Shown one piece after another: positions 1,459 to 4,270 of a stretch of 64,000 nt of DNA; positions within the stretch are counted from its first letter, which is position 1, and the number at the start of each line of letters is the position of its first letter. This DNA comes from Maridesulfovibrio hydrothermalis AM13 = DSM 14728 (GTDB lineage: Bacteria; Desulfobacterota; Desulfovibrionia; Desulfovibrionales; Desulfovibrionaceae). A program made the position numbers and the translations under genes. The stretch is taken from contig NC_020055.1 in assembly GCF_000331025.1 (NCBI RefSeq), positions 3,133,370-3,197,369 on the forward strand, given 5' to 3'. The notes below the pieces were generated by a model, which was given only the letters and a program-made list of their open reading frames with translations, searched no databases and was not told the origin of the DNA.

Positions 1459-2370
1459 TCAAGTCGGCCCAAAAGTTGAACGGATGCGGTCCAACTGTTT
1501 AGCAACCTCATAAATGGTGCGCGCGTACACCATAGAATGGTTGTAACGATAGATAACTTTCAGCTTCTTCGCCTTGCTGAGTGAATTCTTCCAGCCATGC
1601 TTTTTCATAAAATTAGCCATACTTACAAGAGCATCCTCACGCTTAAAAAGGTCTATCTGCCCGTCTTTATCACCATCAACAGCATAACTTAAAGCGGTAG
1701 TAGGCATAAACTGACAAATTCCGAATGCTCCGTATGGTGAACCGGGGATTTCCGCAGGATTAATTGAATTGGCTGACGAAAAAGTCAGTAAAGCTGCAAG
1801 CTCTCTATAAGCCCAGTCAGCTTTTTTCTTTGTCCTTTTCTTAAGCCACTTAAGATCATTATCTTCAAGCTTCTCATACCCGAGATCATCAAAAAACAGC
1901 AAAGGATCTGAGCTTGCTGCCATATTGGCAAGGTTGTTGAAAGCAGGGGCCTTACCAAGTGTAAAACCGAGTTTGGTCTCAACTAACAGCAAAGCAACAA
2001 CCACTGACGGGGCAACACCGTATTCTTTATCGATTTGTACCAAAATATCATAATGCTCACGCAAATAAGCATATGCCCCGGCAAGCAAAACAGGCCCTAC
2101 ATACCTTTCATCAAATTCCTTTTCGCGGGCAACTTTTTTGGCAGGAGGTTCAAATCTGCGTTTAAGCAGCACCCGCATCTTGCGGGCCATTATGTCAGAA
2201 TTATACTCAACAGAAGTAGCCGAAAAAATAGCCTCAACGTATTCAAGATTGAATCCATCCTTAACCAGCCTGTCCTTCAAAGGACTCCATCCTTCATGAC
2301 TGTCAGCGAGTGCAAGGCTGCTGCACATCATGAATATAGAGATATGAAAAATGATCAGCTTCCTGAGCAT
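1459..2370 (-). CDS. Lytic murein transglycosylase (MltB/SLT_2 type)
   Basis: A 303-residue protein that begins with a signal peptide (hydrophobic stretch ending SSLALADS) and continues as an SLT_2 domain. The likely catalytic glutamate lies in VALLLVETKLGF, and the family motif YGAFGICQFMPTTAL is followed by a DGDKDGQIDLF calcium-loop-like segment. Such enzymes cleave the MurNAc-GlcNAc bond of peptidoglycan in the periplasm, forming 1,6-anhydro-MurNAc. Length fits MltB-like enzymes without an extra binding domain. It starts 17 bp after the small dual-CxxC ORF and is probably co-transcribed with it. Confidence 0.88.
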   Translation of the reverse strand: MLRKLIIFHISIFMMCSSLALADSHEGWSPLKDRLVKDGFNLEYVEAIFSATSVEYNSDIMARKMRVLLKRRFEPPAKKVAREKEFDERYVGPVLLAGAYAYLREHYDILVQIDKEYGVAPSVVVALLLVETKLGFTLGKAPAFNNLANMAASSDPLLFFDDLGYEKLEDNDLKWLKKRTKKKADWAYRELAALLTFSSANSINPAEIPGSPYGAFGICQFMPTTALSYAVDGDKDGQIDLFKREDALVSMANFMKKHGWKNSLSKAKKLKVIYRYNHSMVYARTIYEVAKQLDRIRSTFGPT

Positions 2371-2387: not shown

Positions 2388-2618
2388 TTAAAGTCGATTC
2401 ATTGGTACGTTAGACATTTCTTCTTCAAAATCATCATCAATGAATTCGGAATAATCAGCTACATTAAAACACTTGCCGCAGGACCCGCAGCGCAAAAAAA
2501 CACCACTTCAACCACGATGGGTATAAAGATCACCACCGCAGGATTTGCAACGATTATCTGCACTGCCGCTTTCATCGCCTGCCCCTGTTTTATTAAAAAG
2601 GGATTTGCACTGAAACAT
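2388..2618 (-). CDS. Dual-CxxC small protein with in-frame TGA, candidate selenoprotein
   Basis: Ordinary ORF calling misses this gene because codon 37 (2508-2510) is TGA. Read through, the frame gives 76 residues from an ATG at 2618 with a GGAGG box 5 bp upstream. The order is CKSCGG (C24/C27), then HRG-U37-SG, then RCGSCGKC (C44, C47, C50), then an acidic tail FIDDDFEEE. Two CxxC pairs flank the TGA, as in a zinc-ribbon or redox fold. About 16 nt after the TGA a GC stem with a GGU-containing loop can form, as expected of a bacterial SECIS. I recall RefSeq using the name dual CXXC motif small (seleno)protein for such genes in sulfate reducers. The alternative is a small gene broken by a stop mutation. 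Confidence 0.68.
2475..2491 (-). promoter_or_regulatory. SECIS-like hairpin after the in-frame TGA
   Basis: On the minus strand the stem GCUGC/GCGGC (five pairs, one of them U-G) closes a seven-base loop GGGUCCU. It begins 16 nt after the TGA at 2508-2510. Bacterial SECIS elements are short hairpins just 3' of the UGA with a G-U or GGU in the apical loop, and the E. coli fdhF element has a GGUC loop at similar distance. Here the loop GGU starts 22 nt after the UGA. The stem is short, so it is suggestive only. Confidence 0.5.
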
Positions 2619-2671
2619 CAATTCCTCCGAATTATACTCTTCATAAATTTTATCTATGATAGATGTCTACA

Positions 2672-2710
2672 ATAAAAAAACAGCCGGATTCCTGTAACGA
2701 AACCCGGCTG
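2672..2710 (-). terminator. Rho-independent terminator of the TolC-family gene
   Basis: The stem CAGCCGG/CCGGCTG has a 16-base loop and is followed on the minus strand by seven T. It lies 22 bp after the stop codon of the TolC-family gene. Confidence 0.85.
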
Positions 2711-2731
2711 TAATACTGACCTTTATACTTA

Positions 2732-4162
2732 CTAGTTAGTCTTAAGTGAGGGGTTTTTGTAACCCATGGCAACATAAAGTTTTGCAAGTGAAACCTGATA
2801 GTCAGACAAAGCCTGAATCAACTGAGCTTCACTATCACTCAAACGGGACTGAGCATTAAGAACTTCGTTGTTTGTGCTGACCTGAGCCTGATAACGGGCC
2901 ATAGCCATTCTGTAACCTTCACGGCCTGCTTCAACAGATTTGCGGCCTACGCCGATACGGTCTGCGGCAGCCTTGAGGCTCAAGAGCTGGTCCTTGATTT
3001 CATAGGAGGCTTCAAGCTTAGTATTTTCGTAATCAGCCTTGATCTTTTTAACATTATCCTCTGCCCTTTTGGCATCGTAATATGTAGTACCCCAGCTGAA
3101 AAGCTCCCAGTTCACATTCGCGCCGACATTCCAAGAGTCCGGCCGATTGTTATTATTATATTTATTTTTACTCACGGAAGGATCACCGCCGGAGCTTTTG
3201 TAATTAAAATCAGCAGTAATATCCGGATAGAAAGAACTTTCGGAGATTGTCACATCTTTTTCAGCAATTTCGACAGACTTTCTGGCAATTCGCAGATCAG
3301 GACGGTCTTTATCAGCCTTGGCGATGCACTGGTCAAGAGTCATGGAAAAAGGAAGATAGGTAAGTTCGCCGGAGTAATTAACAGTCTTATCAATTGGCAG
3401 ATTAAGTAATGTATTCAATCTTGCTGCCCGTGAATCAACTGTATTCTGGGCGATAAGAAGATCCTGTTCAGCGTTTGCAAGTTCAACTTCCGCCTGCAGA
3501 ACATCCACTCTGGGACGCAGCCCTACCTGATAAAAAGCCTGAATAACCTGCAACTGTGACTTCAGTCTGGCAACAGAATCCTGCTTACTCTTAACTTCCA
3601 TGCGGCCCTGCAACAGGGTCAGAAATGAAGTCTGAATTTTACTGATCAGCGAAAGTTCAACATTGTACAGGCTGGCTTCAGTAGACTCTCTCTGGAGTTT
3701 TGTTTTCTGGTACTTTGAGAGAAGCTCAAAACCTTTAAAAACAGGCTGGCTTATATTAAGTGTAAAAGCCCACTTATCCTGATAGTCAGACTTTGCTCCG
3801 CTGGACATCGGCTGATCGCCGCTATGGGTATAGCCGTAAGTAGTGGTAACAGGAGCACCGAATGCACCGCGCTGTGACTTTACTCTGCTTTCAGAAGCAA
3901 GCAATTCTTTACGCGCTGAAACCATGGTAGGATTCTGTCTGATACCAAGGTTTACGCAATCTTCAAGAGTAAGGGTCAGATCAGCTTCTTTATCTTTCTC
4001 TGCAACAGCCTGCGGAACCTGAGTTGTAGCCTGCTCCATAGAAACAGGGGCCTCAGTTTCGCTTGGCCGGGAATCTTTGTCCGTCTGCTGGGCAAAGGCA
4101 AATGAGACAGATGCCAATATCATTATCAGAGCAAACAAAAAGGAAATATTGCGTTTCATCAT
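2732..4162 (-). CDS. TolC-family outer membrane efflux protein
   Basis: A protein of about 476 residues with a signal peptide (MMKRNISFLFALIMI onward, cleaved near FAFAQQ), an acidic linker, and two outer-membrane-efflux repeats. The first repeat starts at LTLEDCVNLGIRQNPTMVSA and the second at LDQCIAKADKDRPDLRIARK, each followed by long coiled-coil helices. This is the usual layout of trimeric TolC channels. It would provide the outer membrane exit for a tripartite pump or type I secretion system. No pump gene is adjacent; the nearest HlyD/ABC set is at 14561-17651. I chose the ATG at 4162 because an AGGAT box precedes it. Confidence 0.88.
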   Translation of the reverse strand: MMKRNISFLFALIMILASVSFAFAQQTDKDSRPSETEAPVSMEQATTQVPQAVAEKDKEADLTLTLEDCVNLGIRQNPTMVSARKELLASESRVKSQRGAFGAPVTTTYGYTHSGDQPMSSGAKSDYQDKWAFTLNISQPVFKGFELLSKYQKTKLQRESTEASLYNVELSLISKIQTSFLTLLQGRMEVKSKQDSVARLKSQLQVIQAFYQVGLRPRVDVLQAEVELANAEQDLLIAQNTVDSRAARLNTLLNLPIDKTVNYSGELTYLPFSMTLDQCIAKADKDRPDLRIARKSVEIAEKDVTISESSFYPDITADFNYKSSGGDPSVSKNKYNNNNRPDSWNVGANVNWELFSWGTTYYDAKRAEDNVKKIKADYENTKLEASYEIKDQLLSLKAAADRIGVGRKSVEAGREGYRMAMARYQAQVSTNNEVLNAQSRLSDSEAQLIQALSDYQVSLAKLYVAMGYKNPSLKTN

Positions 4163-4270
4163 AAACATCCTAACCACGTGAGTTATTATCATTAAAATTT
4201 TATATAAACAAAATTACAATCTCTATAGATGTTCCTGAGCCGAGAATCAAGGAACATTTTGCTTAAAAGA

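Follow-up and report, generated by a model that had tools for sequence, protein, structure and literature searches.

The closest described relatives of the gene reported here belong to a protein family for which NCBIfam holds a model, NF041197, and which a table in the available portion of PMC13188914 equates with OS_HP3, giving its motif as RxU. In that same portion, OS_HP3 and "hypothetical protein DW" are named separately and share this one model. The available text of PMC9312934 lists OS_HP3 without a domain, and in that of PMC12013277 the authors of deep-Sep report one OS_HP3 gene that their method missed; in the portions of the three papers at hand, no function is given for OS_HP3 or NF041197. 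Two further points in the accessible part of PMC13188914 bear on what follows. The bacterial selenocysteine insertion sequence (SECIS) is modeled there as a small apical loop, with a G in one of its first two positions, lying 16-37 nt from the UGA, and documented changes from selenocysteine (Sec) to Cys are described as rare, mainly affecting FdhA and SelD.

The gene we describe lies at 2388..2618 on the minus strand of the window, by which we mean the whole 64,000-nucleotide stretch of the Maridesulfovibrio hydrothermalis genome that was analyzed. The original prediction of a 76-codon frame preceded by a GGAGG box is borne out: the frame runs from an ATG at 2618-2616 to a TAA at 2390-2388, and the box, read directly from the sequence, occupies 2624..2628 on the same strand, with 5 nt between it and the ATG. 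The original prediction named no strand; read on the plus strand, 2388-2618 gives an unrelated translation. As had also been stated, codon 37 is a TGA (2508..2510, minus strand) flanked by CKSCGG and RCGSCGKC, and the frame closes 17 nt before the ATG of a co-directional gene. Translated with the TGA as a residue, the protein has 76 residues and carries C24-K-S-C27 (2538..2549, minus strand), R35-G-U37, and C44-G-S-C47 (2478..2489, minus strand); the two CxxC pairs are probable zinc knuckles. The name "dual CXXC motif small (seleno)protein," given in the original prediction, proves to be that of a real family, NF041197, which the protein matches over positions 1-53 of the 53-position profile with 78.4 bits, about twice the cut-off of 40. 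The family's features, two CxxC pairs with R-x-U between them, are all present and are kept in the alignment of homologues. No Pfam model exceeds its cut-off on the protein, and the two matches from an Rfam search around the gene fall well short of their gathering scores. The protein is thus a new member of a known and already listed family; a short frame split by a stop codon makes for an easily overlooked gene.

The gene downstream (1459..2370, minus strand) encodes an MltB-like lytic transglycosylase with an SLT_2 domain; PF13406 scores 180.9 bits, over its cut-off, and TIGR02282 scores 134.9 bits, below its cut-off of 281.4. Upstream, a gene for a TolC-type outer membrane efflux protein (PF02321, 235.2 bits) occupies 2732..4192 on the minus strand. 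Between this gene and the selenoprotein gene, a consensus scan places a hairpin of 13 pairs with a T tail, resembling an intrinsic terminator, at 2680..2711 on the minus strand. The scan found three terminator-like sites in 2300-2800, one of them the predicted SECIS stem itself, against 0.3 in shuffled sequence; a scan of the locus for promoter-like sites on the gene's strand found none. Because the terminator-like hairpin at 2711-2680 follows the TolC-type gene, the selenoprotein and MltB-like genes probably form a transcription unit of their own, and the layout predicts that the two are probably co-transcribed.

A search of 98 genomes, the window's own included, found a match in 73, among them all 17 genomes of the genus. 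The gene takes the TGA form in 45 of the 73 and a form without the stop in 28; two genomes counted as TGA (G075 and G091) each hold, in addition, a weak stop-free match in a long frame of 766 or 778 codons. Seventy-six loci were taken, with six match rows omitted (two each in G075 and G091, one each in G057 and G025; E values 4.3e-5 to 9.9e-4), and four of these loci were duplicates over the last 60 residues, leaving 72 distinct sequences. A protein alignment of 70 members, from which L009 and L069 were omitted and in which the window's own sequence takes the place of L015, contains no member that fails to match NF041197 at an E value of 0.001 or better. Across the phylum, the model finds a match in 116 of 394 sampled genomes, 89 of them over the cut-off, and in none of 14 control genomes.

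What codon 37 aligns with in these homologues was one of the checks proposed for the prediction. The 72 distinct sequences were aligned with U masked as X, and every U nevertheless falls in a single column, which holds 42 U, 30 Cys, and no other residue; the position is therefore TGA or Cys in 72 of 72, although the homologues are related and such counts are not independent events. In the same alignment, C24, C44, and C47 are present in 72 of 72 sequences and C27 in 71; the final Arg is also found in 71, the one gap being L069, which is cut at a contig end. The claim that coding character continues smoothly across the TGA is likewise upheld. In the segment that an ordinary stop would leave untranslated, comparisons of the window's gene with 12 relatives of the same genus (nine TGA, three Cys) give dN values of 0.08-0.22, well below dS, which is at least 0.89 and often saturated.

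The machinery for Sec insertion, whose presence had been set as a further check, is complete in the window's genome: selA (601.6 bits), selB (389.7), tRNA-Sec, the product of selC (83.3), and selD (330.8) all score over their cut-offs. The selD gene of this genome (L048, G000:C2:575466-576386) is itself a TGA-containing gene for a putative selenoprotein, and it too folds into a hairpin with G as the first loop base, the loop lying 20 nt past the TGA. For the comparison among genomes, we set our own tRNA-Sec threshold of 73 bits or more, since the best scores listed fall into groups of at least 73 and at most 53, and 93 of the 98 genomes would clear the 47-bit cut-off set for the family. By this measure, all 45 TGA-form genomes have tRNA-Sec and 8 of the 53 others lack it (P 0.007); two of the eight are among the 28 Cys-form genomes and six among the 25 with no match, and some of the eight are incomplete assemblies. 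No selB over the cut-off was found in 1 of 45 TGA-form, 3 of 28 Cys-form, and 6 of 25 no-match genomes, and the one TGA-form case, G092, is a genome that is 53% complete and in which tRNA-Sec is present.

A hairpin at SECIS distance from the TGA had been noted in the original prediction, and it is there, at 2475..2491 on the minus strand (GCUGCGGGUCCUGCGGC). It has 7 bp and a folded loop of GUC (2484-2482) closed by a G-C pair, 23 nt after the UGA, and the published SECIS model, applied by hand, describes it. From the 42 TGA genes, RNAalifold predicts a single 7-pair hairpin (−9.21 kcal/mol) whose loop lies 23 nt past the UGA; from the 30 Cys genes, it predicts none. All seven pairs form in 34 of 42 TGA genes versus 2 of 30 Cys genes. 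In the TGA genes 96.5% of cells are paired versus 92.2% in shuffles, and 15 cells are changed on both sides versus a shuffle mean of 3.4 (0 of 500 shuffles as high in either case), numbers that lean towards the structure because it was derived from these same, related sequences. Counted by pair instead of by cell, changes on both sides occur in 3 pairs, a value that does not exceed the shuffles, 121 of 500 of which reach it. When the partner strand is slid by 1-3 columns, 29-61% of cells in the TGA genes are paired, and a slide of −1 also gives 15 both-side changes. The Cys genes show 65.2% of cells paired, with no measure above shuffles, and 20-49% in slid registers; the two Cys codons common to both sets would by themselves account for the higher pairing in the unslid register. 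The absence of the hairpin from the Cys genes is, for us, a better control than the pair counts of the TGA genes.

Other features of the TGA genes point in the same direction. All 42 have G as the first base of the loop, compared with 14 of the 30 Cys genes (P 3.5e-8). Where the loop codon (+8) of a TGA gene encodes Arg, it is AGG in 20 of 21 cases; at other positions of these genes, AGG makes up 29 of 225 Arg codons. Most of the stem consists of the codons of the second CxxC, so that the predicted SECIS is carved from the second of the probable zinc knuckles, a point that we believe to be fresh. The cutting of a SECIS from these codons would account for the residue after C44, which is R, G, or K in 40 of 42 TGA genes; in the Cys genes P is commonest there (13 of 30). 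Taken alone, the window's hairpin stretch is not stabler than shuffled sequence (z 0.58), and an energy test by synonymous recoding separates the two sets weakly (mean z −0.71 for TGA versus −0.28 for Cys genes, P 0.03). Since energy tests separate the sets poorly and the helix is short, we used pair-by-pair tests instead, and the window's predicted hairpin is convincing by comparison between species only.

Taken together, the exchange of Sec and Cys at one position, the sel genes, the selection on the downstream half, and the SECIS comparison indicate that codon 37 very probably specifies Sec, as the original prediction had inferred, and each proposed check within reach of sequence analysis agreed with that prediction; we hold this reading of a member of the NF041197 family, drawn from comparative sequence analysis, with high confidence. 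The UGA would be decoded by SelB and tRNA-Sec, guided by the hairpin around the second CxxC. Were the TGA an ordinary stop, the gene would encode a 36-residue peptide and its second half would be a remnant or a separate small ORF. A frame called under table 11 does end at the TGA, and a 35-residue ORF can start at a TTG behind it, but protein-level selection continues past the TGA, 30 of 72 homologues run through the position in frame with a Cys, and the TGA is common to 14 of the 17 genus genomes, our own included; we consider an ordinary stop extremely improbable. The TGA is also one base away from both TGC and TGT, as would be expected of a Cys gene that had been misread in sequencing or had lately acquired a nonsense mutation. 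Such an accident can hardly account for a TGA that recurs in 13 other genomes of the genus and in 45 of the 98 genomes of the search, the window's among them, or for a predicted hairpin shared by 42 distinct TGA genes, and we give it almost no credence.

Nor do we favor readthrough of the UGA as another residue, whether Trp or, by near-cognate reading, Cys. The Cys found at the position in 30 of 72 homologues would suit the latter, but Trp occurs there in none of the 72, the hairpin is predicted from the TGA genes only, and tRNA-Sec is present in 45 of 45 TGA-form genomes; insertion of a residue other than Sec seems very unlikely to us.

If codon 37 does specify Sec, the genus offers a view of its exchange with Cys, since 14 of the 17 genomes carry the TGA form and 3 the Cys form. 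On a midpoint-rooted tree of 27 loci, built from fragments of the TolC-type and MltB-like genes and weakly supported at several nodes, three changes are required if the ancestor of the genus had Sec and five if it had Cys; over the whole tree, the two starting points need five each. One Cys gene of the genus (L016 1618-1620, minus strand, in genome G011) keeps all seven pairs and the GUC loop. When this gene is recoded at random with synonymous codons, an equally good hairpin arises in 1.9% of trials, and the corresponding figures for two TGA genes, the window's and L018, are similar at 1.7 and 2.9%. An intact hairpin that is so rare under recoding makes L016 look like a gene that has recently changed from Sec to Cys. 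The loop of L044, the other Cys gene with all seven pairs, begins with C. Reversals from Sec to Cys within the genus, one of them with an intact SECIS-like hairpin, thus seem likely on this comparison of sequences; the point is, we believe, a fresh one, and because documented changes of this kind are rare, such reversals would extend a short list. A pattern search for Cys codons followed by a SECIS-like stem, run over 288 genomes of the taxonomic family, found matches in four, and the reversed control pattern likewise found four, so that the search carries no weight. Its four matches are the Cys gene of G011 and L123, L124, and L125 (in G512, G560, and G565); the last three, from three genomes of one other genus, are one identical sequence that fits the pattern and may well do so by chance. 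The genus provides a matched set, in which TGA and Cys genes encode one short protein among the same neighbors, and the set lets the cost of a SECIS within coding sequence and the direction of Sec/Cys change be measured.

Neighboring genes were sought with the window's proteins as queries at an E value of 1e-4, in flanks that were mostly 1.5-2 kb and on some contigs shorter. In these flanks, a TolC-type gene lies upstream in 29 of 72 loci, and an MltB-like gene lies downstream on the same strand in 31, with one more on the other strand; both neighbors are present in 17 of 17 genomes of the genus. By clustering, the next gene in 9 of the 72 loci is PcnB, poly(A) polymerase, an identity that rests on a TIGR01942 score of 350.6 bits over 400 residues of one of the nine. 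These loci (L036, L038, L054, L058, L060, L066, L070, L073, and L075) belong to other families of the order, and in them PcnB replaces the MltB-like gene. We considered deriving a function from the TolC-type and MltB-like setting and rejected it, since the neighbors change between lineages and a setting that does so is uninformative on function.

No signal peptide is apparent by eye in the 76 residues, and the protein is probably cytoplasmic. An AlphaFold2 model, weak by its own measures (pLDDT 61.5, pTM 0.35), has strands at 30-36 and 39-44, so that residue 37 falls at the turn that separates the CxxC knuckles. A profile search matches 2jrp (E 2.2e-4) and HypA (E 2.1e-3). Foldseek against the PDB returned 239 matches at E values up to 10, none at 0.001 or better and the best at 0.097; several of these weak matches are proteins that we take to be zinc ribbons or zinc fingers. 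With a poor model and no Foldseek match at 0.001, both the zinc ribbon and the placement of Sec37 are weakly supported. On balance, we think it probable, from the profiles and the modeled fold, that the protein is a zinc ribbon, in which C24/C27 and C44/C47 would together hold one zinc ion. Sec37 would then stand alone at the tip of the hairpin between the knuckles, next to the conserved Arg of R-x-U; the protein ends in a conserved acidic tail, in most sequences finishing (D/N)R(L/I).

We suggest, tentatively, that the likeliest chemistry at Sec37 would be that of a redox switch. A single selenol, oxidized and reduced by a partner protein, could serve as such a switch or as a thiol-exchange site; it would not work as a dithiol of the CxxU type. 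A different role is about as probable: Sec37 might bind metal or play a structural part, in a zinc ribbon that handles metal or binds nucleic acid or protein. The weak profile and fold likeness to HypA, to small subunits of RNA polymerase, to ribosomal proteins, and to IF2-beta would fit such a protein, as would the absence of any Cys or Sec within two residues of U37, which leaves neither a CxxU nor a UxxC. Against it, position 37 holds only Cys or Sec in 72 of 72 homologues, and positions limited to these two residues are a general feature of redox-active sites; Sec as a metal ligand is rarer outside the hydrogenases and formate dehydrogenases, which we also count against a metal-binding or structural Sec37. 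A further-reaching reading combines a zinc ribbon bearing a lone Sec at the tip of its hairpin, a SECIS formed from the codons of the second knuckle, repeated change from Sec to Cys, and at least one intact SECIS-like fossil in a Cys gene. As a combination it is conjectural, and we hold it to be less likely than not.

How the locus stands beside the described systems can now be stated. The window's protein shares with NF041197 / OS_HP3 the whole length of the family profile, at twice the cut-off, and its R-x-U matches the motif listed in the available table of PMC13188914; 23 residues precede the profile match, and we saw nothing that would exclude membership. The predicted SECIS resembles that of E. 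coli fdhF (K-12) in reading UGCRGGUC into a loop that begins with G. The loop lies 18 nt after the UGA in the E. coli fdhF fold and 23 nt after it in the window's gene. The two differ in that the window's stem would have 7 contiguous pairs whereas the fdhF fold has a longer, interrupted stem and a 4-nt loop. Among the small zinc ribbons, 2jrp, 2jne/YfgJ, the zinc domain of HypA, and LysW are profile matches to the window's family with E values from 2.2e-4 to 0.14; the LysW model scores 12.6 bits on the window's protein versus its cut-off of 75. These proteins have two CxxC pairs with a strand, a turn, and a strand between them, as does the model of the window's protein, and none of the four is known to carry Sec at the turn. 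If our reading is correct, a zinc ribbon with a lone Sec would represent a use of the residue unlike that of the thioredoxin-like CxxU proteins.
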